Of a stretch of 64,000 nt of DNA, positions 11,623 through 58,528 are shown piece by piece. The stretch is taken from assembly GCA_025698865.1 (NCBI GenBank), contig JAILWQ010000004.1, forward strand, positions 124,001 to 188,000. Reading direction: 5' to 3'. Position 1 is the first letter of the stretch. Every line of letters starts with the position of its first letter. Under the pieces are notes generated by a model, which saw only the letters and a program-made list of their open reading frames with translations, ran no database searches and was not told the origin of the DNA. The position numbers and the translations under genes were made by a program. The stretch comes from Erythrobacter sp. (GTDB lineage: Bacteria > Pseudomonadota > Alphaproteobacteria > Sphingomonadales > Sphingomonadaceae).

Positions 11623-12243
11623 TCATATCGCGGCCGGCCATCGATCGAGTGCCATTTTGGCGATGGAGAGCAGTTCGTTGATCGTAGCGCCGTCGCGCGC
11701 CTGAACGGACATGCCTTCCATGACCGTATTGATGAATTTGCCCAGCACGGCCGGATCGGTGTTGGCCGCAAGCTCGCCCTGCGCGGCGCCGCGTTGCAGA
11801 CGCTCGATCAGGAGGGCCTCCGCCGCGATACGCTTGTCGCGCAGCAGGCATTCGATGTCGGCGGACGCCGGCGAAACGGCTGCCGCTGCCGAATACATGA
11901 AGCAGCCGGCCGGCGTTCCAGGTTCCGAGAATGATGACGCCGCTCGTTCCAGCAGGCCTTTGACGGCATCGTAGGTGGACAGCGCCGGATCGTTGATCGG
12001 TGCATAGAGGTGGACGCTGAACGTTGCGGCGTAGCGCTCGATCACCGCCGCAAACAGCCCCGCCTTGTTGTCAAACGCTGCATAGAGACTGGCGGCGGCG
12101 ACGCCAGTCTCCGCCACCAGATCTGCCATCGATGTCGCTTCGTAGCCGCGCTGCCAGAACAGACGAACCGCCTTGTCGAGCGCAGCGTCAGTGTCGAACA
12201 CACGAGGGCGACCTGCGCGGCGACGGGCTTTCGTCTCTGTCAT
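11623..12243 (-). CDS. TetR/AcrR family transcriptional regulator
   Basis: A protein of 206 residues. The N-terminal helix-turn-helix is clear (ATSMADLVAETGVAAASLYAAF, residues about 36-57), and the C-terminal ligand domain carries PAGCFMYSAA, as in the YxaF/LmrA-like group. It is divergent from the oxidoreductase gene at 12340 across 96 bases that contain two related operator-like sites. It probably represses that gene and itself in response to an electrophile or quinone. The ligand is unknown. Confidence 0.88.
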   Translation of the reverse strand: MTETKARRRAGRPRVFDTDAALDKAVRLFWQRGYEATSMADLVAETGVAAASLYAAFDNKAGLFAAVIERYAATFSVHLYAPINDPALSTYDAVKGLLERAASSFSEPGTPAGCFMYSAAAAVSPASADIECLLRDKRIAAEALLIERLQRGAAQGELAANTDPAVLGKFINTVMEGMSVQARDGATINELLSIAKMALDRWPAAI

Positions 12244-12260
12244 CTCTGGTGCACGATATG

Positions 12261-12320
12261 GAATGATCGATAAATAATATCTTGAAACTGGTGGTTCGCA
12301 CCCTTACAGAACGATCATTC
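12261..12320. promoter_or_regulatory. candidate TetR operators between divergent genes
   Basis: GAATGATCG at 12261-12269 and its exact inverse CGATCATTC at 12312-12320 lie symmetrically in the TetR/oxidoreductase intergenic space. The second site sits in GAACGATCATTC, itself nearly palindromic. The first is next to the TetR start and the second is close to the AAGGAG ribosome site of the oxidoreductase. Binding here would block both genes. The assignment rests only on position and symmetry. Confidence 0.5.
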
Positions 12321-12339
12321 AATAATCAAGGAGCATCCC

Positions 12340-13329
12340 ATGAGCCGCATTGTCCGTATCCACGAATATGGCGACGCCAGCGTCCTCAGGATTGAAGATG
12401 TGGCAGTCCCCGCGCCCGCGGCCGACGAAGTGCAGATCGCGGTGAAGGCGATAGGCATAAACCGCGCCGAGGTGATGTTCCGCAACCATGCCTACCTTCA
12501 GGAAGCCGAGTTCCCGAGCCGCCTTGGCTATGAGGCTGCCGGCACTGTCGTTACGGTCGGCGCGGACGTGACCGGGTTTGCGGAAGGCGAAGCCGTCAGC
12601 GTCATCCCCCCGCTCGATATCGCGCGCTGGGGCACTTATGGCGAGGTCGCCAACGTGCCCGCCCGCCTCGTCGTCAAGCATCCGGCGGCGCTATCGTTCG
12701 AGGAAGCGGCGGCCGTATGGATGCAGTATGTCACCGCCTGGGGTGCGCTGGTGGAGCAGGCGAAACTCGGCGAGGGCGATTTCGTCATCGTCACTGCTGC
12801 CTCAAGCAGCGTCGGCCTTGCTGCCTTCCAGATTGCGCGGATGGTCGGTGCGACGGTAATCGCGACGACGCGTACCGGCGCCAAGCGCCAGGCCCTGATC
12901 GATGCCGGTGCACATCATGTCGTCGCGACCGCGGAAGAGGATCTGGTAGCAAGGGTGATGGAGATAACCGATGGTCAGGGTGCGCGCGTGGTGCTCGATC
13001 CGGTCGGAGGCCCGTCGTTCGAGCCGCTGACCGAGAGCATGGCACGCGGCGGCATCCTGCTCCAATATGGCGCGCTCAGCGGCGAACCGACGCCGTTCCC
13101 GTTGTTCTCCGTGCTGGGCAAGAGCCTCACGCTCAAGGGGTATCTCTACAGCGAGATCGTCTCAGACGATGCCGCCCTCGATCGCGCCAAGACGTTCATC
13201 GTGGCGGGTCTGGAAACGGGCGCGCTCAAGCCGCTGATCGCGCGCACTTTCCCGCTCGACGCCATCCAAGACGCTCACCGCTTCCTCGAATCGAACGATC
13301 AGATCGGCAAGGTCGTCGTTACGGTCTGA
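12340..13329 (+). CDS. zinc-independent quinone oxidoreductase-like medium-chain dehydrogenase
   Basis: A protein of 329 residues of the medium-chain dehydrogenase superfamily, quinone oxidoreductase branch. The N terminus MSRIVRIHEYGDASVL, the motif GINRAEVMFR near 45 and the cofactor-binding stretch VTAASSSVGLAAFQIAR near 155 are typical, and the zinc-binding cysteines of alcohol dehydrogenases are absent. It probably reduces quinones or enones with NADPH. AAGGAG lies upstream of the ATG. It is divergent from, and likely controlled by, the TetR gene. Confidence 0.9.
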   Translation: MSRIVRIHEYGDASVLRIEDVAVPAPAADEVQIAVKAIGINRAEVMFRNHAYLQEAEFPSRLGYEAAGTVVTVGADVTGFAEGEAVSVIPPLDIARWGTYGEVANVPARLVVKHPAALSFEEAAAVWMQYVTAWGALVEQAKLGEGDFVIVTAASSSVGLAAFQIARMVGATVIATTRTGAKRQALIDAGAHHVVATAEEDLVARVMEITDGQGARVVLDPVGGPSFEPLTESMARGGILLQYGALSGEPTPFPLFSVLGKSLTLKGYLYSEIVSDDAALDRAKTFIVAGLETGALKPLIARTFPLDAIQDAHRFLESNDQIGKVVVTV

Positions 13330-13408: not shown

Positions 13409-14593
<1,185 letters not shown>

Positions 14594-14639
14594 CCCATCG
14601 TTACGAAGCGGCGCGAGGCGCCCGGATCGACAATTCGTC

Positions 14640-14672
14640 CGTCATCATGGCCCGACCCAGGCCATGATGACG
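14640..14672 (+). terminator. hairpin after class III alcohol dehydrogenase copy 1
   Basis: A perfect 13-bp stem (CGTCATCATGGCC with its complement) and a 7-base loop lie 47 bases after the stop. No T-run follows, so it may be an imperfect terminator or an RNA-stabilising hairpin. Confidence 0.5.
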
Positions 14673-14771
14673 CGCGCTCTCGCAAATGGGCAACGCGTCG
14701 CGATGCATTCATCTGCTACCCGACTGTGATGAAACACGGGCCGCACGGGCGTATAGGGCAGGAAGACTGAA

Positions 14772-17432
14772 ATGAAGAGCAAGGATATTCACGCGACGAC
14801 GCCGGCCACCGATCATGGGCATGCGGGGCCGCCCGCTTGCGTGCAGGTTCGCGGCGCGCGCCAGAATAACCTCAAGAATATCGACGTTGATGTACCTCGC
14901 AACGCCTTCGTGGTGTTCACCGGCATATCGGGCTCGGGCAAGTCATCGCTCGCGTTCGGCACCCTCTATGCCGAAGCCCAGCGGCGTTATCTGGAGTCGG
15001 TTGCGCCCTATGCCCGTCGCCTGATCGACCAGGCCGGGGTTCCGGAGGTCGACGCGATCGACGGTTTGCCGCCTGCGGTCGCGTTGCAGCAGCAGCGCGG
15101 CTCGGCCAACGCGCGATCCTCGGTCGGCAGCGTGACTACGCTCTCCAGCCTGGTGCGGATGCTCTATTCGCGCGTCGGCGAATATCCGCGCCATCAACCC
15201 ATGCTCTATGCGGAGGATTTCTCCCCCAACACGGTCGCCGGCGCCTGCCCGACCTGTCACGGCATCGGGCGCGTCTATGACGCGACCGAAGAAACGATGG
15301 TGCCTGACGACAGCCTCACCATTCGCGACCGGGCGATCGCCGCCTGGCCGACCGCCTGGCATGGCCAGAACCTGCGCGATATCCTCGTTTCGCTCGGCTA
15401 TGACGTCGATACGCCGTGGCGCGACCTGCCGAAAAAGGATCGCGACTGGATCCTCTTCACTAAAGAGGCGCCGACGGTGCCGGTCTATGCGGGCCTGACG
15501 CCCGAACAGACGCGGACGGCGCTCAAGGGCGGCATGGAGCCGAGCTACCAGGGCACCTTCACCGGCGCGCGCCGCTATGTGCTGGAAACCTTCGCCAACA
15601 CCAAAAGCGCGCTGATGAAGAAGCGCGTCTCGCAATATATCATCGGACGCGATTGCCCGACCTGCGATGGCAAGCGCCTGAAGCGCGAAGCCCTGTCCGT
15701 GAAGTTCGCGGGCCTCGACATCGCCGAGTTCGGCGACCTGACGGTGTTGAAACTCCGGGACTTGCTCACGCCCGTCGCGCATGGCGAATACGGGGGCGCC
15801 GCGGCGGTCCCGAAGGGCCATGTCCTCGGCAAGGCGGCCCGCGATGCGGCGGTCGAACGGCGAGTCGCGGCAGGAGGTTCGGCGCACAAGGCTGCGCCCG
15901 ACGTGCGCCGCACGCCCAATCTTTCCGATGAAAAGCGGGTCGCCGCCCAACGCCTTGCTTGCGAATTGATCGAACGGCTAGAGCCGCTGATCGATCTTGG
16001 CCTTGGCTATATTTCGCTCGACCGCAGCACGCCGACGCTCTCCTCCGGAGAGCTGCAGCGCTTGCGGCTTGCCACGCAATTGTCGTCACAGCTTTTCGGC
16101 GTGGTCTATGTGCTTGACGAGCCTTCGGCAGGGTTGCACCCGGCAGATGGCGAAGCCTTGCTCACCATCCTCGAGCGTCTCAAGGCGGCGGGCAACTCCC
16201 TGTTCGTCGTCGAACACGATCTCGACGTGATCCGCCGCGCGGAATGGCTCGTCGATGTCGGGCCTGGAGCCGGGGAAAAGGGCGGTGAAGTCCTCTACAG
16301 CGGGCCGATAGAGGGGCTTGCCGACGTCGAGGCTTCGATCACCCGCCGCTACCTGTTCGCAGAGTCGCTCCGCAGTGAGCGCACACCGCGCGACCCCACG
16401 GCATGGCTACGCCTGGAAGGGATCAGGCGTAACAATCTCCATGGTCTCGACGTCGCGTTTCCCATCGGCTGCTTCACCGCTGTCACCGGCGTTTCGGGAT
16501 CGGGCAAATCCAGTCTTGTCAGTCAGGCGCTGCCCGAGCTCGTCACGGAACACCTCGGCGGCTCCCCCGTGGCCGAGGAGGAGGATATCGATCCGCTGCT
16601 CGATGTTGCGCAAAACGACACTGACGGACGCATTGTCGCAGGCATGGAGCATGTTCGCAGGCTGGTGCGGGTCGATCAGAAACCGATCGGTCGCACGCCG
16701 CGCTCGAACCTAGCCACCTACAGCGGCATGTTCGACCATGTGCGACGGATCTTCGCTGATACGCCGCTCGCCCGCCGGCGGCATTACAGCCCGGGAAGGT
16801 TCTCGTTCAACGTCCCGCAAGGCCGCTGCCCTGTGTGCGAGGGCGAGGGATACGTCATCGTGGAGCTGCTGTTCCTGCCGAGCGTTTTTGCCCCGTGCTC
16901 GACCTGTCATGGCTCTCGCTACAACCCTCAAACGCTCGAAGTCGAATGGAACGGGCGCAATATCGCCCAGGTGCTCGAACTGACGGTCGACGATGCGTGC
17001 GATTTCTTCGCTGACGAGAAATCTGTGATGCGCTCCCTCGACGTGTTGCGGGAGATCGGTCTTGGCTATCTGAGGCTCGGTCAGCCGGCGACCGAGCTGT
17101 CTGGCGGGGAGGCGCAGCGCATCAAGCTGGCGACTGAACTGCAACGCGCTCAACGCGGCAACACGATCTACATCCTCGACGAGCCGACTTCGGGGCTTCA
17201 CCCCTCCGATGGCGACCGGCTGATGCAACACCTGCAGGGCCTCGTAGACGCCGGCAACACCGTCGTAGTCGTCGAACATGACATGCGCGCCATCGCCCAG
17301 ACGGACTGGATCATCGACCTGGGACCGGGGGCCGGGGAAGATGGGGGCCGTATCGTTGCCAGTGGCGTCCCTGGCGTCGTTGCGGAAGCGGAAGGCAGTC
17401 TCACCGCCCGCTATCTCAAGGCGGCGCTGTAG
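14772..17432 (+). CDS. UvrA2-like excinuclease ABC subunit A paralog
   Basis: A protein of 886 residues with two ABC ATPase halves. The N-terminal Walker A is [12 protein letters not shown] (near 57). Zinc-finger cysteines appear in [12 protein letters not shown] (near 160) and [12 protein letters not shown] (near 295). Signature motifs are [12 protein letters not shown] (near 430) and [12 protein letters not shown] (near 780). The second Walker A is [10 protein letters not shown] (near 575), with [10 protein letters not shown] and CSTCHG in the second half. It is shorter than housekeeping UvrA (about 950-970 residues) and lacks the UvrB-binding insert, as in class II UvrA proteins linked to DNA damage or antibiotic tolerance. 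The ATG at 14772 has AGGAAG upstream. The gene stands alone. Confidence 0.88.
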
Positions 17433-18381: not shown

Positions 18382-18801
18382 TCAGCCGTGCGCGAAAGCC
18401 TGCGCCGCCGCCTCGGCCACGGCCTGATCCTGCTTGCCGGTGCCGCCCGACACGCCCACCGCGCCGATCACCGTCCCGCCCTCCTTGATCGGCACGCCCC
18501 CGGCGAAGATCATCACCTTGCCGTCGTTGGAGGCATGGATACCGTAGAAGTCGGCGCCCGGCTGGGCGAGCTTCGCCAGCGCCTTGGTCTCGACGTCGAA
18601 CGCGCGCGCCGTCCACGCCTTGCTTATCGCGATGTCGACGCTGCCGCGCCACGCATCATCCATCCGCGCGAACGCCAGGAGGCAGCCGCCCGCGTCCACC
18701 ACCGCGATGTTCGACGGGCTGCCGATCCGCTCGGCCTCCGCGATCCCCGCATCGATCATCGTCCGCGTGTCGTTCAGGTCGAGTGTCTGGATGGTGCGCA
18801 T
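18382..18801 (-). CDS. HbpS/GlcG-like heme-binding family protein
   Basis: A protein of 139 residues covering a single HbpS/GlcG domain (DUF336): NIAVVDAGGCLLAFARMD near 32, SKAWTARAF near 59, and GGVPIKEGGTVIGAVGVSGGTGKQD near 100. Related proteins bind heme or cobalamin-like cofactors or support glycolate and propanediol use, but the function of stand-alone copies is unclear. No signal peptide is visible, so it is probably cytoplasmic. AAGGAG precedes the ATG at 18801. Confidence 0.85.
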   Translation of the reverse strand: MRTIQTLDLNDTRTMIDAGIAEAERIGSPSNIAVVDAGGCLLAFARMDDAWRGSVDIAISKAWTARAFDVETKALAKLAQPGADFYGIHASNDGKVMIFAGGVPIKEGGTVIGAVGVSGGTGKQDQAVAEAAAQAFAHG

Positions 18802-18907
18802 GGCGTGTCTCCTTGGCCAGTTCGGGGAAAGCTGTTCAGTGCACGCCGCCGCGCGCGGGTCCCCCCCCCGCGGGCGAGAGCGACATGCTAGGGTGCCGAC
18901 CGCTCCG

Positions 18908-19201
18908 CTATTTCGCGGCCAGCAGGGTGAACTTGTGAATCTGCGGCGGTTCGGAAAACAGTTCGTCTGCCTTTTCCATCAGTGCGGCGGCAACCTTGCC
19001 GTCGAGATGGGCCTGGCGATCCTCCTCTGTCTCGAACGTATCGAAGATCGCGTACGCACCGGGACCTTCCTCGATCGCGTACCAAGTCTGAGTGCCCGGC
19101 TCAGCTTGAACGAGCGGCAATGCCGAGGTCAGGAAATCGGCGACATCGCGCTCTTTTCCGGGCTTGGCCTTCAGCGGTACATACAGGGCAAGTTTGGGCA
19201 T
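18908..19201 (-). CDS. ABM-domain monooxygenase-like protein (putative quinol monooxygenase)
   Basis: A protein of 97 residues with one antibiotic-biosynthesis-monooxygenase domain: LYVPLKAKPGKERDVADFL at the start, TWYAIEEGPGAYAIFDTF in the middle, and the family HLDGKVAAALMEKADELF near residue 65. Relatives such as YgiN oxidise quinols without a cofactor. GAGGAGT precedes the ATG. It lies among other small redox genes on the same strand. Confidence 0.85.
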   Translation of the reverse strand: MPKLALYVPLKAKPGKERDVADFLTSALPLVQAEPGTQTWYAIEEGPGAYAIFDTFETEEDRQAHLDGKVAAALMEKADELFSEPPQIHKFTLLAAK

Positions 19202-19312
19202 AAGTGACTCCTCAAGTGAAACGGACAGATATTGTTCGGCAAACTAACGGACGAGCGGGCCGGCACGTTCCCTAAGAGGCGGAGCACACCCGGCCCCGCC
19301 TCCTCGTCGAAA

Positions 19313-20053
19313 TCAGAACTCCTGTGCGGTCGGCCGGATGACGATCGCGTTGATGTCGACGTCATCAGGTTGTTCGACAGCGAACGCGATAGCACGCGCC
19401 ACCGATGCCGTCGGGATGGCCTGCTTGTAGAAGTCGAGCACCGTTTCGGCAGCCGTGCCTGATGTCGTGAACTTCAAATCGCTTTCGACAGCTCCAGGCT
19501 CGATTGACGTGACCCGGACTTTTTCCCCCACCTCGTGGCGCAAGCCTTCGCTGATCGCGCTGACGGCAAACTTGGTGCCGGAGTAGACCGTGCCGCCCGG
19601 TGCGAAGACCTTGATACCCGCAACCGAGCTCAGGTTGATGATGTGACCGCTGCCCTGCTCGAGAAAACCGGGAAGGGCCGCCGCGATGCCGTAGAGCGTA
19701 CCCTTCAGATTGACGTCGATCATCTGATCCCACTCGTCGGTGTTGACCTCGGCCATCGGACGGATCGGCATCAGCCCGGCATTGTTGATCAGCACGTCGA
19801 GGCGACCGAAGTCGGCAATGATTGCGGCGACGACGGACTGGACCGCCGATTTGTCGGTCACGTCCAGCGCGTAGCTACGTGCCGTGCCACCGTTTGCGGC
19901 GATGTCAGCGACGACCTCGTCGAGCCTGTCCTTGCGCCGCGCGGCGATCGCCACCTTCGCGCCGCGTTCCGCGAGAAGACGCGCAGTTTCCGCGCCGATG
20001 CCGCTGCTGCCGCCGGTAATGAGAACGACCTTGCCTTCGATACCCTTTGTCAT
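19313..20053 (-). CDS. short-chain dehydrogenase/reductase
   Basis: A protein of 246 residues with the classical SDR motifs: TGGSSGIG near residue 14, NNAG near 90, catalytic Ser in NLSSVAG (near 143) and YSGTK (Tyr/Lys near 156-160). It resembles YdfG-like NADP-dependent oxidoreductases. AAGGAA precedes the ATG at 20053. It follows the lipoprotein gene of the four-gene operon by 76 bases on the same strand and may be its fifth member. Confidence 0.9.
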   Translation of the reverse strand: MTKGIEGKVVLITGGSSGIGAETARLLAERGAKVAIAARRKDRLDEVVADIAANGGTARSYALDVTDKSAVQSVVAAIIADFGRLDVLINNAGLMPIRPMAEVNTDEWDQMIDVNLKGTLYGIAAALPGFLEQGSGHIINLSSVAGIKVFAPGGTVYSGTKFAVSAISEGLRHEVGEKVRVTSIEPGAVESDLKFTTSGTAAETVLDFYKQAIPTASVARAIAFAVEQPDDVDINAIVIRPTAQEF

Positions 20054-53936: not shown

Positions 53937-54458
53937 TTGGCGGGAACGCAGCGCTATCTCGCGGCGCTGGGGTCGAACATGCGACTGCCCGGCGTGGGCG
54001 GCCCCCGGCATGTCCTCGATGAGGCGATCCGGCGTATCGAGGACAGCGGGGCCAGGGTCGAAAAACGGTCCCGGACCATCTCGTCGCGCCCGATCGGTCC
54101 TTCGAGCCGGACCTACGCCAACGGCGCGGCGCAGATTGCATCGCCGCTCGATCCACCCCGGTTCCTCGCCCTGCTTCAGGGCATCGAGCGTGATCTCGGC
54201 CGGACGCGCCGGGGCGCCCCGTGGCGCGCCCGCACGATCGACCTCGATATCGTGTTGTGGGGTGGCGGCACATGGCACAGCGACCGCCTCATCATCCCCC
54301 ATCCACGCTTCCGCGAGCGCCTCTTCGTGCTCTCTCCATCAGCCGAAATCGCCCCCCACTGGCGCGATCCCGACAGCAATCTGACCACACGCCAGCTCTT
54401 TGCCCGCTTGACCCGCTCCCACCCGCTGCCTAGGTGCGCGCCGTGGTCGGGCCCTTAG
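53937..54458 (+). CDS. folK: 2-amino-4-hydroxy-6-hydroxymethyldihydropteridine diphosphokinase
   Basis: A protein of 173 residues starting at TTG 53937 directly after aguB. HPPK motifs are YLAALGSNM (near 8), RTYANGAAQI, LLQGIERDLGRTRRGAPWRARTIDLDIVLWG (the metal-binding Asp pair near 100) and IIPHPRFRERLFVL. It pyrophosphorylates the pterin in folate synthesis. Its 3' end overlaps the first ten bases of tRNA-Lys. Confidence 0.88.
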   Translation: MAGTQRYLAALGSNMRLPGVGGPRHVLDEAIRRIEDSGARVEKRSRTISSRPIGPSSRTYANGAAQIASPLDPPRFLALLQGIERDLGRTRRGAPWRARTIDLDIVLWGGGTWHSDRLIIPHPRFRERLFVLSPSAEIAPHWRDPDSNLTTRQLFARLTRSHPLPRCAPWSGP

Positions 54459-54524
54459 CTCAGTCGGTAGAGCAACTGACTTTTAATCAGTAGGTCGCTG
54501 GTTCGAACCCAGCAGGGCTCACCA
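54449..54524 (+). tRNA. tRNA-Lys (anticodon TTT)
   Basis: A 76-base tRNA with encoded CCA: acceptor GGGCCCT with AGGGCTC, D-loop AGCTCAGTCGGTAGAGC, anticodon loop CTTTTAA and T-loop GTTCGAACC. From position 26 to the 3' end it is repeated at 58476-58526 as an attachment site. The tRNA itself is complete on the left side of the element. Confidence 0.97.
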
Positions 54525-54526
54525 CT
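54474..54526 (+). repeat. attL, 53-bp direct repeat
   Basis: Begins with AACTGACTTTTAATCAG inside the anticodon arm of tRNA-Lys and ends two bases after the CCA. It is identical to 58476-58528. The flanking bases differ on both sides, which defines the limits. Confidence 0.93.
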
Positions 54527-54585
54527 ATAATTTCAGTAACTTAGCAGCGAATTTAGTGGTGTTGGCCGGGCGGCTCAAATCCGCC

Positions 54586-54722
54586 AAGGTAACATCAAGG
54601 TAACGGTTCGCTGAGTTATCCGGCCCATATGGTTTCGGCTGGACCGGACCCCGATCCGATGAGGGGGTGGGGGGGGTGTCCGACGATCGAGCCGATCGAT
54701 TCGTTACCGCCCGCGTTACCTT
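54586..54722. repeat. AAGGTAAC sites near attL (candidate arm-type integrase sites)
   Basis: AAGGTAAC occurs at 54586-54593 and 54597-54604 as a direct pair, and inverted as GTTACCTT at 54715-54722, with a partial GTTACC at 54703-54708. The same octamer recurs near attR. The rest of 54527-54777 holds no gene. Confidence 0.6.
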
Positions 54723-54777
54723 GACGCGCCCACGATCGCGCAAGCCATTGAAAGCGCAGGTCAATCAGCCTTGCCGC

Positions 54778-55212
54778 TCACTGATCCTCAATCAGTGTTC
54801 CGGTCTCAAGGCCAATCTGCCGAACCAACCGGGTCACGTCCGTTGCCGCTTGCTTGGCCACGTTTGCGTTCTCGAACAGTTGCCGCATAGCAGCTTCAAC
54901 ATCCTCGCATTCGCGCATCGTCCATATTAGACCCAACGGAATTGCAGGGTGAATCACAAGGTGCACCGCACCTCGGCCATCCTCTTCCTTCACCGTCAAT
55001 TCTGTGGCCGTTCGATCATATCGTAGAGCGTGGACTGGTTGGACAGCACTGGACCGCAATAGTTCGTTCAATCGCTTTTGCCCGCCGATCTCGGCTCGAT
55101 ACTGCGTTTGCGACACACGGCGCACGAAGGGCGCGAATGGAAAAATCCCAGGGGCCAACGTGAGGACGTGCGCGGGTTCGGCAACGTAAAAGGCGATCGA
55201 GCTTGCCAACAT
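54778..55212 (-). CDS. unknown protein of the tRNA-Lys element
   Basis: A protein of 144 residues with GGGAG seven bases before ATG 55212. The N terminus (MLASSIAFYVAEPAHVLTLA) is mildly hydrophobic but no clear signal peptide. The middle shows RVSQTQYRAEIGGQKRLNELL, and the C terminus is helical and acidic (RECEDVEAAMRQLFENANVA). I recognise no family. It is the last gene of the element operon, nearest attL, where cargo genes often lie. Confidence 0.65.
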   Translation of the reverse strand: MLASSIAFYVAEPAHVLTLAPGIFPFAPFVRRVSQTQYRAEIGGQKRLNELLRSSAVQPVHALRYDRTATELTVKEEDGRGAVHLVIHPAIPLGLIWTMRECEDVEAAMRQLFENANVAKQAATDVTRLVRQIGLETGTLIEDQ

Positions 55213-55269
55213 GTCAGTTCTCCCTTGTTCGCCCCAACGCTTCCAACCGACGATTGATTGAAACGCGGC

Positions 55270-55782
55270 TCATTTTTTGAGCGTTGCAATTAGCGTTTCG
55301 AGTTCATCGACCGATGCGCGCAGTTCTTTCAGTTCGCTTGCATCGAGCGCGGCCTTCATGCCTTGTGTTAGACGCGCAAATTCAGACGGACTAATTTCAC
55401 CACTCGTTGCCGCTTCGATCAAATCGTATGGGCTAGACGTTGCATCGAGTTCGATCGGTCGACCATCGCGCGGCAAAGTCATATCCAGCACGTATCGAAT
55501 TGCCGGGAAACTTTGTTGAGCGATTAGCACGCGCAATCCATCGATTGCATCGCCTGCTAACGCTTGAACGCTCGCAACAGCTTCGCGTGACTGTTTGTTG
55601 CGGCTTCCTGGCTTTCGACCGCCGAAACCAGGCAGGATGCGTCCGGTTTTCGGATCGCGGCCTTCCGGCGGAATCCACGGCGTTTCTTCGACCGGTGCGG
55701 TGGGCCGCGATACGCTAGCGCCAGCACGGCCAGCAGGCGGCGGCGGTGCGGGCGGATTAGGACGTTGCGATTGCTCGGTCAC
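55270..55782 (-). CDS. DUF5681-like protein of the tRNA-Lys element
   Basis: A protein of 170 residues. A Pro-rich N terminus leads to the block FGGRKPGSRNKQSR (near 60), which is characteristic of DUF5681 and similar phage-associated small proteins. The C-terminal third is helical (LKELRASVDELETLIATLKK), possibly a coiled coil. The GTG start at 55782 overlaps the stop of the primase-like stump as GTGA. A longer open frame upstream is antisense to nothing known and overlaps the primase gene, so I do not use it. It may be DNA-binding or terminase-small-subunit-like; this is uncertain. Confidence 0.7.
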   Translation of the reverse strand: MTEQSQRPNPPAPPPPAGRAGASVSRPTAPVEETPWIPPEGRDPKTGRILPGFGGRKPGSRNKQSREAVASVQALAGDAIDGLRVLIAQQSFPAIRYVLDMTLPRDGRPIELDATSSPYDLIEAATSGEISPSEFARLTQGMKAALDASELKELRASVDELETLIATLKK

Positions 55783-56204
55783 GATGCCACTCGCCGCGTA
55801 GGGAGCCCGTGTCGCTCCGCCGGTGCCAGCGGACGGGACGTAGGGCACAGGACGCGCCAGCGCGGCGCTTCGGGCCGATGCGAAGGTGTTGTGAGGACCA
55901 CGCCGCACAATCCGGCGTCCACCAGCTGCGCAGCCGCTACAGCGGGATGGACCTCGCCAGCGTCATAGTCCGCCTCGATGCCGTAAATCATTTCGATCGT
56001 GTCATTGGACCGATGATCGCCGGTAAAGCCCGCCAGCTTGATTAACGGCAGGCTCTCTTTGATCGGTGCCACTGGTGCGCTCGATTTCAGCCAGTCGACC
56101 AGTTCGGGCCATGTCGTCTCGCGGCGTGTGCCGGTCGCTTTGTTGGCGCGCTCGAACATCGTCAGCGTGATCGGTTGCGGCGAACCGCGCGATTGAGTAT
56201 CCAT
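55779..56204 (-). CDS. primase/replication-like protein, C-terminally truncated
   Basis: A protein of 141 residues from ATG 56204. It matches only the N-terminal part of large phage-type primase or VapE-like proteins: LTMFERANKATGTRR, WLKSSAPVAPIKESLPLIKLAGF, YGIEADYDAGEVHPAVAAAQLVDAGL and TPSHRPEAPRWRVLCPTSRPL. Homology stops near 55805 and the frame ends at 55779. A full-length relative would be several hundred residues, so most of the protein has been deleted, or the stump now has a separate role. It is coupled to the DUF5681-like gene. Confidence 0.65.
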   Translation of the reverse strand: MDTQSRGSPQPITLTMFERANKATGTRRETTWPELVDWLKSSAPVAPIKESLPLIKLAGFTGDHRSNDTIEMIYGIEADYDAGEVHPAVAAAQLVDAGLCGVVLTTPSHRPEAPRWRVLCPTSRPLAPAERHGLPTRRVAS

Positions 56205-56273
56205 TAGCAATTCCGATCGAAGGCCCCGCGTGCCAGTCGCATGGATCACGCGGGGCCATTTTCTTTGTGGACG

Positions 56274-56495
56274 TTAGGCGTCCGCAGTTTCGCGGTTCGG
56301 CGCGGGCGGTGCCTCAGTCGACCGGGATTCCCACCACTGACGGATTTCGTCGGCGCGCCAATAACGGCGGCGGTTGACGTATTTGGGCTGTGGAAATCCC
56401 GCGCGGTCATCGCGGGACCAGCGATGCAGCGTCATATCCGATACATTGCCGCAGGCTTCGCGCACGGCGCGGCTGGTCATCATCGCTTGGGTCAT
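56274..56495 (-). CDS. AlpA-family excisionase/regulator
   Basis: A protein of 73 residues with a MerR/AlpA-type winged helix: VREACGNVSDMTLHRWSRDD then GFPQPKYVNRRRYWRADEIRQWW. Such proteins act as recombination directionality factors or transcription activators for nearby integrases. The ATG at 56495 is preceded by GGAAGGTGG. It lies between the primase stump and the unknown gene upstream. Confidence 0.85.
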   Translation of the reverse strand: MTQAMMTSRAVREACGNVSDMTLHRWSRDDRAGFPQPKYVNRRRYWRADEIRQWWESRSTEAPPAPNRETADA

Positions 56496-56599
56496 GTTGC
56501 CACCTTCCATGTTGTAACAGTTGGTGACGGGGTATTAATCACATGATCGCGCGGAATGCCAAAGGATGCAGGTCGGTATATTCGACCGAATTAAATGGA

Positions 56600-57004
56600 C
56601 TAATAGTCGGTCGCGCAGGTCGATTTTATGTCCTTACGACGCCGCTCCGCATAGACAGGGTACGCTTCCTCAAACGCGTGAATTTCCGCCACCCATCCTA
56701 GAACGGTTGAACGCTCAACTTCAAATAGGTCCTTAAGATCGGCAAGAACCGAATCAGATTTTTCGCCCGCTTCAACCCGCTCCAGATAGAAAACAGCTAT
56801 CCAATTTTGCATTTGTTTCGGATGTTTTGCGCGCTTACCCGGTATTCGTTTCAGCGATCCTTCCACAAGTAACGCCAGTAGTTCTCGCATATCCGAATTA
56901 AACGCCTGATTGGACCGCAGCATATTGGCCAACGCGCCCCCATGCTTTACCCCCTTTGCAGCAGCAAACACGGCATCGCGAAACGCGGTGTCATATCCCG
57001 ACAT
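56600..57004 (-). CDS. unknown protein of the tRNA-Lys element, coupled to the integrase
   Basis: A protein of 134 residues from ATG 57004 (or GTG 57007, making a GTGA overlap with the integrase stop). It is helical and basic: KRIPGKRAKHPKQMQNWIAVFYLERV in the middle and VLADLKDLFEVERSTVLGWVAEIHAF, which could form a helix-turn-helix. I know no family name. Its coupling to the integrase hints at a role in controlling integration or excision. Confidence 0.65.
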   Translation of the reverse strand: MSGYDTAFRDAVFAAAKGVKHGGALANMLRSNQAFNSDMRELLALLVEGSLKRIPGKRAKHPKQMQNWIAVFYLERVEAGEKSDSVLADLKDLFEVERSTVLGWVAEIHAFEEAYPVYAERRRKDIKSTCATDY

Positions 57005-58317
57005 CACGCCGCCTCCCGCGCATCGGACGGGTCATCGAGCACTGCTAGATATTCGGACCACGCAAGTTCATCGGACTGGATCGCGGCATTGAATGCGGCT
57101 CGTTCGCGCAGCCGCAGGCGATCATAGGCGAGCCGCCGCGTATCGATCGCAATCACGTCAACGATGAAGCGCCCCCATACCTCCGCCGCCAGTTCCATTT
57201 CGTCGCGGTACTGGTGCCGGTTATAGACGCCTGCCACGCCAGCCCGCGCACCTGTCCGATGGTTCAGCAACGCTTCGACCGTAGCGGGTTGCTGCCCCAG
57301 CGCGATCAGACCCGTTGTGGCGGTCCGCCGAATGTCATGGATGCGCCAAGGCTCATTGAAGCCTAGCGCCCTGTCCATTCGCGCCTTCGCCTTGTGGTGG
57401 CCTGCATAGACTGCTTCGCCTGTCGTGGTGAAAACCAGCCCCTTTTTGCCGATGCGCGTCACCTTCGCGAGTTCGGCAATGGCGGGCTTGGATAGCGGCA
57501 CGACATGCCGGTCCCCGTTCTTCGCTCGGTCGCTCGGTATCGTCCATTCCGCCCGATTGAGGTCTAATTCGGCATCGGTCATGCCGGTGACTTCGGAACG
57601 CCGCTGAGCGGTCAGGATCAATAACCGGATGATCGGCCCGAACGGTTGCGCTGTTACGCCCGCTTCGTGCCATAGCGCGGCCAGTTCAGACGATGACAGC
57701 ACCCGGTCACGCTCTCGCTCATCGGCAACCTTCGGATAGCCCGCATAAGGAGATTGCGCGACAAGCCGCTGATCCGGTTCCGCTGCCCATTTGAAGAACC
57801 TCGCCAATGTCGAATGCACCCGGTTCGCCATCGTGCGCGCTCCGGCGTTGGCGAGGTCCGTCACCACCTTGCGCGCATTATCGCCGCTCACTGCCGCAAT
57901 GGGACCTTCACCGATCGCTGGCAGGATGTAGGAATCGAATTGGCGCTGGACCTCATCCGCCGCGCGGTTGCGTTCCTGAGCGCGGCGGGCCTTCATGAAG
58001 CGTTCGGATGCGGAGCGCACTGTTAGCGCCGCTTTGTCCGCTTCGACCTTGGCGCGGCTGGACGGATCATCGCCATCGTCCACGCGGGCCATTATGGCGC
58101 GCGCCGCCTTTCGAGCATCGGCAAGCTTCATTCGATCGATCGGACCCAGCGACTTTTTCCGCTGTTTGCCCGCCGCGTTGCGATAGCGGACTGCCCAACT
58201 TTTCGCACCGGATGGATAGACCACCAGGACCAAGCCGCCTTCACCGTCCGACTCTTCGTATTGCGCGTCGCGAGCCTTCGCGCTCTCGACCAGCTTGACC
58301 GTCAATCTCCCCGCCAT
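57004..58317 (-). CDS. int: tyrosine-type integrase
   Basis: A protein of 437 residues. The N-terminal DUF4102-like arm-binding domain (RLTVKLVESAKARDAQY, SWAVRYRNAAGKQRKKSLG) is followed by a core-binding SAM-like region and the catalytic domain: Arg in LTAQRRSEVTGM (near 240), HDIRRTATTGL (His-x-x-Arg near 330) and the nucleophile Tyr in GVAGVYNRHQY (near 370). It integrates the element into the 3' part of tRNA-Lys. The gene reads away from attR, next to AAGGTAAC repeats that also flank attL. Confidence 0.93.
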   Translation of the reverse strand: MAGRLTVKLVESAKARDAQYEESDGEGGLVLVVYPSGAKSWAVRYRNAAGKQRKKSLGPIDRMKLADARKAARAIMARVDDGDDPSSRAKVEADKAALTVRSASERFMKARRAQERNRAADEVQRQFDSYILPAIGEGPIAAVSGDNARKVVTDLANAGARTMANRVHSTLARFFKWAAEPDQRLVAQSPYAGYPKVADERERDRVLSSSELAALWHEAGVTAQPFGPIIRLLILTAQRRSEVTGMTDAELDLNRAEWTIPSDRAKNGDRHVVPLSKPAIAELAKVTRIGKKGLVFTTTGEAVYAGHHKAKARMDRALGFNEPWRIHDIRRTATTGLIALGQQPATVEALLNHRTGARAGVAGVYNRHQYRDEMELAAEVWGRFIVDVIAIDTRRLAYDRLRLRERAAFNAAIQSDELAWSEYLAVLDDPSDAREAA

Positions 58318-58326
58318 ATCGCCTCC

Positions 58327-58394
58327 AAGGTAACACCCACGGTAACAGATTGGCCGCGTCTGGCACTGTTACCTTGCGTGGATAACATTACCTC
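58327..58394. repeat. AAGGTAAC sites near attR and upstream of int
   Basis: AAGGTAAC at 58327-58334, GGTAAC at 58341-58346, inverted GTTACCTT at 58368-58375 and a degenerate ATTACCTC at 58387-58394. They lie between int and attR and match the repeats near attL. They are probably integrase arm sites that overlap the int promoter. Confidence 0.6.
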
Positions 58395-58475
58395 ACATTG
58401 CGCGAAAACGTTGGAATTGCAAGGTATATGAGCGATCGGGATGCACTGACATGGACCCCCATGTTATAACCCAAG

Positions 58476-58528
58476 AACTGACTTTTAATCAGTAGGTCGC
58501 TGGTTCGAACCCAGCAGGGCTCACCACT
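58476..58528 (+). repeat. attR, 53-bp direct repeat (partial tRNA-Lys copy)
   Basis: An exact copy of 54474-54526. It contains the anticodon arm to CCA of tRNA-Lys but no acceptor 5' strand or D arm, so it is not a second tRNA gene. It lies 76 bases from the end of ydeP. Confidence 0.93.

Follow-up and report, generated by a model that had tools for sequence, protein, structure and literature searches.

In a 64 kb stretch of an Erythrobacter sp. contig (JAILWQ010000004.1, positions 124,001 to 188,000; hereafter the window), 4.05 kb bounded by two copies of a 53-bp repeat form an integrative element lodged in a tRNA-Lys gene. The element is real, and we think it probable, from comparison with related loci, that it is an internally deleted, mosaic island of the phage-satellite type. 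Its integration module (the tRNA-Lys core, the arm sites, the integrase gene int, the int-overlapping gene p134 and alpA) resembles that of 10-12.5 kb tRNA-Lys islands, several with capsid genes, from other genera of the same family. For the replication end the likeness is to another type of island, locus L090, which carries a primase gene, genes for 243 and 73 amino acids (aa) and a homologue of the element's p212. The recombination module looks complete. The original prediction of a minimal or reduced satellite-like element agrees with a primase that ends at about codon 137 and with the lack, relative to L090, of the genes between primase and p212. Reduced phage satellites are a class already known; what is identified here is the nature of the reduction. 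The features of the element, in window coordinates, are:

54449..54524, plus strand: tRNA-Lys(TTT), the integration target, intact at the left end (ARAGORN; Rfam 75.5 bits)
54474..54526, plus strand: attL core repeat, 53 bp, within the 3' part of tRNA-Lys (repeat comparison)
54585..54604, plus strand: two candidate arm-type sites CAAGGTAAC with a spacing of 11 bp, some 60 bp away from the core
54703..54723, minus strand: second, inverted GGTAAC pair of the left arm
54778..55212, minus strand: p144, orphan open reading frame (ORF) with AAGGGAG, ribosome-binding-like, upstream; no confident homologue
55270..55782, minus strand: p212, likely GTG start at 55782, 170 aa; homologues in two related islands
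55779..56204, minus strand: truncated primase (prim), N-terminal ~137 codons plus 4 junction codons
56274..56510, minus strand: AlpA/excisionase-like regulator, 78 aa (PHROG matches)
56600..57004, minus strand: p134, 134 aa, overlapping the int stop at 57004 by 1 nt
57004..58317, minus strand: tyrosine integrase, 437 aa, apparently intact (Pfam domains, alignment)
58326..58376, no single strand: right-arm sites, two direct (12 bp apart) and one inverted
58476..58528, plus strand: attR core repeat (repeat comparison)

Boundaries and recombination module

The two repeats, which had been predicted to be perfect, are identical at 53 of 53 positions (54474-54526 and 58476-58528) and start 4002 bp apart. 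The left copy lies inside the tRNA-Lys gene, and the right copy is a fragment or tail of the tRNA that scores below threshold in Rfam (26.1 bits vs a gathering threshold of 29). GC content is 0.59 between the repeats vs 0.65 in the whole window, and the interval is the GC minimum among 3,949-bp windows stepped by 250 bp. The six ORFs all read from the minus strand, in the order int, p134, alpA, primase, and then p212 and p144. Like tRNA-targeting integrative elements in general, the element has a terminal tyrosine integrase gene, direct repeats that restore the 3' end of the tRNA, and an unoccupied site elsewhere.

That unoccupied attachment (att) site is in G249, the genome of a sister species, where a single core copy (52/52) was found within the 37 kb examined and where the left flank is colinear with the window up to the core, at 88-90% identity. 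A folK/tRNA query matched all 60 genomes of the genus, the source genome included, G204 and G247 weakly. When the element itself was the query, with five candidates scored per genome, eight of the 60 matched: the source genome in full and seven others by fragments of 26-69 bp only (eight matches in total, E about 1e-3). Apart from these short fragments the element was not found in the other 59 genomes searched, nor were the same genes seen in place without att repeats. A second copy of the core occurs on the same contig in G246, G226 and G217, at distances of 13.8, 14.3 and 50 kb, respectively, and on a different contig in G218, so that the tRNA-Lys site looks like an insertion hot spot. Separately, G249 differs from the source genome by an inverted block of about 9.4 kb that has one breakpoint within about 90 bp of tRNA-Lys and runs from a molybdopterin oxidoreductase gene through what by eye is an efflux-type outer-membrane gene (the other gene names in the block are also by eye); genes beyond the block also differ between the two genomes.

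The integrase was predicted to be full-length, and its three domains (Arm-DNA-bind_3, Phage_int_M and Phage_integrase) all exceed their Pfam cut-offs. The residues that we take, by eye, to be catalytic align with those of five relatives. Integrase relatives at E<=1e-60 are present in 13 of 249 genomes of the family, the source included, and for seven of the 12 others we took larger stretches, in which genes were called with a simple codon-usage caller written for this analysis. The integrase is 35-39% identical to those of five such loci, L051-L054 and L056, and 36% identical to its best match in a phage collection; an integrase scan of genome contigs, which reaches only close relatives, gave one weak relative. 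Elsewhere in the source genome, contig C37 carries two tandem tyrosine recombinase matches (13951-16127).

The repeat-int-alpA arrangement at tRNA-Lys, which the original prediction proposed to look for, recurs in the family in L053 and L054 (45-48-nt repeats) and in L052 (19-nt repeat). The 45-48-nt repeats are exact and bound, at tRNA-Lys, 10.7-10.9 kb in L053, L054 and L056; the 19-nt tRNA-like repeat is common to L052 and L051, its copies lying 10.0 and 12.5 kb apart, respectively. ARAGORN called tRNA-Lys in L053 and L054, L052 also has a tRNA-Lys, and none was called in L051. No tRNA-derived repeat was found in the examined stretches of L055 and L058.

All five copies of CAAGGTAAC in the window fall inside the two arms of the element. 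These 409 bp hold seven GGTAAC cores, whereas 2000 Markov shuffles gave 0.19 on average and never more than 3. The left pair (+,+) and the right triplet (+,+,-) of GGTAAC recur in all four of the islands L051-L054, with spacings of 12, 11 and 26 bp vs 11, 12 and 27 bp in the window, that is, within 1 bp, and the left pair lies 58-62 bp from the core in the window and in L052-L054. The window has the inverted left pair in addition to this layout. In L056 the left pair is 12 bp apart and reads AAGGTATC and AGGTAAC, nearer the window's word than that of L051-L054, and upstream of int in L055 there are several AGGTAAC/AGGTATC sites. The layout, written with CAAGGTAAC here and mostly with TGGGGTAAC, (T)GGGGTAAC, in L051-L054, is a handle for finding more islands and for probing integrase specificity.

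The AlpA-like protein, proposed as an excisionase, matches PHROG families of DNA-binding and excisionase proteins (E 6.5e-6 to 6e-4), with Pfam HTH_17 under its cut-off. It is 48-50% identical to AlpA of L051, L052 and L054 and 33% identical to that of L053; tblastn found no relative in L055, L056 or L058. A PADLOC match to mad1 (E 2.7e-4) was discounted.

The gene that follows int shares 1 nt with it, both in the window and in L051-L054, and 8 nt in L056. The C-terminal half of p134 resembles the int-overlapping gene product of L056, at a score that none of 2000 shuffles reached. The scores against the corresponding products of L051, L052, L053 and L054 were reached by 1165, 93, 32 and 158 of 2000 shuffles, and kinship to these via a profile was unconvincing. 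The claim that the 134- and 144-aa products could be assigned to no family held in so far as neither matches Pfam, PHROGs or PADLOC at E<=1. Viral contigs contain no relative of p134. The predicted model of p134 is helical (predicted local distance difference test, pLDDT, 70), with a plausible helix-turn-helix at residues 83-114, and has no Foldseek match in PDB or BFVD at E<=0.001. We discounted a match in G050 (E 0.003, 28% over 61 residues) and the best PDB match, a designed PPR (pentatricopeptide repeat) protein (E 7.5e-4 over 34 residues), and set aside weak matches over short stretches: p134 and p144 against L033, the primase fragment against L056, and p144 against L089 (E 0.002-0.02).

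A primase cut short, and p212

The primase fragment is 49% identical over 128 residues to residues 13-140 of a 652-aa protein of L090, and it also matches the N-terminus of a 737-codon frame in G124. Relatives of this N-terminus were found at 17 IMG/VR loci out of 25 pattern matches; the homology stops at residue 137 of the window protein in 13 of the 17 and at residues 131-134 in the other four. Full relatives are 652-816 aa long in seven of the eight loci with genes listed, L089 being the locus with no match. Plasmids yielded no relative, and a search of the source genome returned only the fragment itself. The two of these 17 viral contigs that were scanned, L077 and L070, both carry capsid, protease and portal genes, L077 additionally HNH and TerL and L070 additionally an integrase.

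Nothing in the element matches the L090 primase past residue 140, or the 243-aa and 73-aa genes, at E<=0.1, and the AAA/DUF3987 part, seen in L090 and L077, is likewise absent. A frameshift in place of a deletion was rejected, as no reading frame contains the later parts of the primase. L090 has the order primase, 243-aa gene, 73-aa gene, p212 homologue, and the distance from primase codon 140 to the p212 homology is about 3.5 kb there vs about 0.13 kb in the element, which gives an estimated loss of 3.4 kb relative to L090. The missing part would comprise the last ~510 primase codons and the next two genes. The predicted integrase/AlpA/primase layout stands as to order, which is that of the minimalist islands discussed below, and fails as to the primase, of which the N-terminal fragment is all that is left.

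The stop of the primase fragment overlaps the start of p212 (GTGA). A 212-aa ORF at 55270-55908 overlaps the primase ORF out of frame; since homology backs only about 55270-55665 of it, the GTG at 55782 is the likelier start. Homologues of p212 were found in three of 296 genomes of the order, the source included (E 4e-34 and 4e-18), and are 51% (L089) and 38% (L090) identical over about 130 residues. In both islands, which are located close to tRNA-Ser and come from a single other genus of the family, the homologue is preceded by genes for 241-243 and 72-73 aa, and then comes a gene for 99-111 aa. These three neighbouring gene pairs are related between L089 and L090 (each score reached by 0 of 500 shuffles), and the two primases are unrelated (98 of 500). 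Because its homologues sit inside a conserved gene run of two related islands, p212 is probably a module gene and not cargo. No relative of p212 was found in viral contigs, plasmids or phages, and its weak matches reach E 0.089 (PHROG) and E 0.42 (best PDB); the L090 homologue matches PHROGs of unknown function (E 0.0018 and 0.0038). A small terminase, suggested by place and size, found no support, and we do not claim it. The codon-usage caller did not pick p212.

Likeness to phage satellites and competing readings

If the element is an internally deleted satellite, its integrase, acting on core and arm sites, would recombine attL with attR, AlpA presumably serving as directionality factor and p134 perhaps as its partner; this would release a circle of 4.0 kb and leave the tRNA-Lys site restored. 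Without a primase the circle should be unable to amplify by itself, so that the island would be inherited mainly with the chromosome, or would move only with replication and packaging provided by a helper or a second satellite. On this reading the element is probably able to excise and integrate and unable to replicate alone. The source genome has two HK97-type capsid genes on other contigs and so is likely to harbour a phage, a satellite or a gene transfer agent.

One report describes phage-inducible chromosomal minimalist islands (PICMIs) of Vibrionaceae, which lie next to fis, combine int, alpA and prim, have about six genes and no capsid genes, and are induced and packaged as concatemers by a helper phage (PMC10803314). 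According to the same report, a gene between int and alpA overlaps int by 1, 4 or 13 nt in 21 of 35 subfamilies; PICMI115, at 6.1 kb the authors' smallest satellite with characterised activity, requires this gene (iolg) for excision, and deletion of its prim reduces copy number and brings transfer under detection (PMC10803314). Measured against that account, the element is like a PICMI in its order (int, int-overlapping gene, alpA, prim, unknowns), although a PICMI may have an extra gene before prim, in a 1-nt overlap that is among those reported, and in having about six genes and none for a capsid. It differs in lying in tRNA-Lys and not at fis, in measuring 4.05 kb vs 6.1 kb for PICMI115, and in having only an N-terminal prim fragment, which leaves the int, alpA and prim set incomplete. 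The likeness of p134 to iolg that is drawn here is one of position; because p134 fills the int-overlapping slot, whose gene PICMI115 needs for excision, it is a candidate excision partner.

Capsid-forming phage-inducible chromosomal islands (cf-PICIs) are described as encoding a capsid, protease, portal, connector, terminase and HNH protein of their own (PMC10690885, PMC11389934). L051, L053 and L054 fit most of this list, with no small terminase identified. L054 has genes for a portal, a prohead protease, an HK97-type capsid, HNH, TerL, an AAA_25 protein and AlpA; its small terminase and connector were left unassigned by Pfam. By tblastn L051 and L053 match the L054 portal, protease, capsid, HNH, TerL and the gene in the connector's place, and also the AAA region of L090, which is all that L052 matches. 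These three cf-PICI-like islands have a related integrase and AlpA, the arm-site layout and an int-overlapping gene in common with the window element, which differs from them in having no capsid, portal, protease, HNH or terminase gene and an integrase outside the L051-L054 branch. No cf-PICI gene was found among the window proteins, and the L054 proteins found none in the element (tblastn, E<=0.1). Satellites of the P4 kind are marked by signature genes such as psu, delta and sid, and the six element proteins have no match of this sort in Pfam or PHROGs at E<=1.

Several observations weigh against a deleted satellite. The element contains no phage-specific gene. Because no intact parent element was found, we infer the deletion, and its size is an estimate. 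L090, the model for the replication end, lies near tRNA-Ser and has a more distant integrase (about 27-31% identical to the window's for L090 and L089) and lacks an AlpA match; neither L090 nor L089 yielded att repeats, and in L089 p212 is accompanied by an unrelated primase. The right arm of L056 differs from the window in site layout, and L033 has no such arm sites. In a FastTree of 20 integrases (the window's and 19 relatives, with L056 entered as L047 and L054 as L044), the window protein sits on a long branch beside L056/L055 (weak support, 0.65), and L051-L054 and L089/L090 make up two further branches, each with a support of 0.998. We had first assumed an integrase clade shared with L051-L054 and withdrew it, as the tree disagrees; membership in the family of capsid-gene islands is unsupported by integrase phylogeny, and the tree does not single out the nearest kin. 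Finally, the right flank of G249 is rearranged (the source genome's block 58618-68057, counted in window positions and running past the window's end, is inverted there), which makes a junction comparison impossible.

An alternative to which we give a small share of belief is a satellite that is streamlined yet complete and has at no time depended on a primase of its own: the circle would be amplified by the replication of a helper or of the host, 4 kb would be its working size, and the primase fragment or its coupling to p212 would be useful. The recombination module and arm sites look intact, the stop/start overlap is of the kind seen in translational coupling, and the fragment keeps its coding signal, all of which fit. 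The abrupt end of primase homology speaks against it, as does the reported effect of removing prim in PICMI115, namely a lower copy number and undetectable transfer (PMC10803314); and presence in one of 60 genomes of the genus gives no sign of recent spread there.

It is likewise unlikely that this is an ordinary genomic island in a tRNA gene, equipped with an integrase and AlpA and having no kinship to phage satellites. Regulators of the AlpA type and integrases that target tRNA genes are known from other islands too, the element has no capsid, terminase or capsid-remodelling gene, and the integrase tree gives no tie to the capsid-gene islands. Against this stand the AlpA, int overlap and arm-site layout that the element shares with islands of which three carry capsid genes, and the capsid, protease and portal genes on both of the scanned viral contigs with the same primase N-terminus.

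A bolder proposal, which we consider distinctly improbable, is a working 4.0 kb satellite without primase, smaller than PICMI115 and made of the integration/excision module, p212 and p144, which would borrow replication from a helper or from full-size satellites with the same tRNA and arm layout, a "satellite of satellites". A chance repeat, misassembly or overcalled ORFs, lent some colour by the ease with which ORFs of such length arise in this composition, can be given almost no credence beside the 53/53 repeat at a tRNA 3' end, the unoccupied G249 site, arm sites far above shuffles and homologues for int, alpA, the primase and p212.

The element documents, on the preferred reading of a deleted satellite, how an island shrinks: the replication end is lost and the recombination module still looks complete. 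Should it be true that such a truncated element still excises and moves, the minimum satellite gene set would be narrowed.

p144 and the capsid-gene islands

The original prediction took the unknown genes for the possible payload. With p212 a likely module gene and p134 in the int-overlapping slot, p144 is left as the sole cargo candidate, and it may be no gene at all. When the 1,747-bp cargo segment was Markov-shuffled 500 times, 385 of the resulting sequences held an ORF of at least 144 aa, so that length by itself is no evidence for a gene here. The coding signal of p144 is weak and lies in its last third, and the codon-usage caller took only the final 46 codons. No confident relative was found beyond the source genome in 198 family and 355 order genomes (overlapping sets); a match in G461 (E 0.006, 30% over 71 residues) and a single NCBIfam match (E 0.0065, 16.7 bits vs a cut-off of 70) were discounted. 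Its AlphaFold model is unusable (pLDDT 38), and the best PDB match has E 0.29.

The comparison points to a group of tRNA-Lys islands within one bacterial family, part of them with capsid genes; in the library searched, no paper joined Sphingomonadales with "phage satellite" or Sphingomonas with "phage-inducible chromosomal island". The cf-PICI-like islands, of 10.7-12.5 kb and from other genera of the family (L054 5503-16200, L053 5266-16249 and L051 4103-16611), look more interesting than the window element. L052 (5908-15935) has the integrase, AlpA and arm sites of this group and no capsid-gene match, and carries genes for 491, 227 and 115 aa. The replication gene region of L051 appears split, and within it (11796-13145) lies a 449-aa protein that by eye we take to be an IS1380-type transposase. 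Beyond the integrase of L090, the protein at 18697-19797 resembles by eye a type I restriction specificity subunit, so that this island may be larger and carry defence genes.

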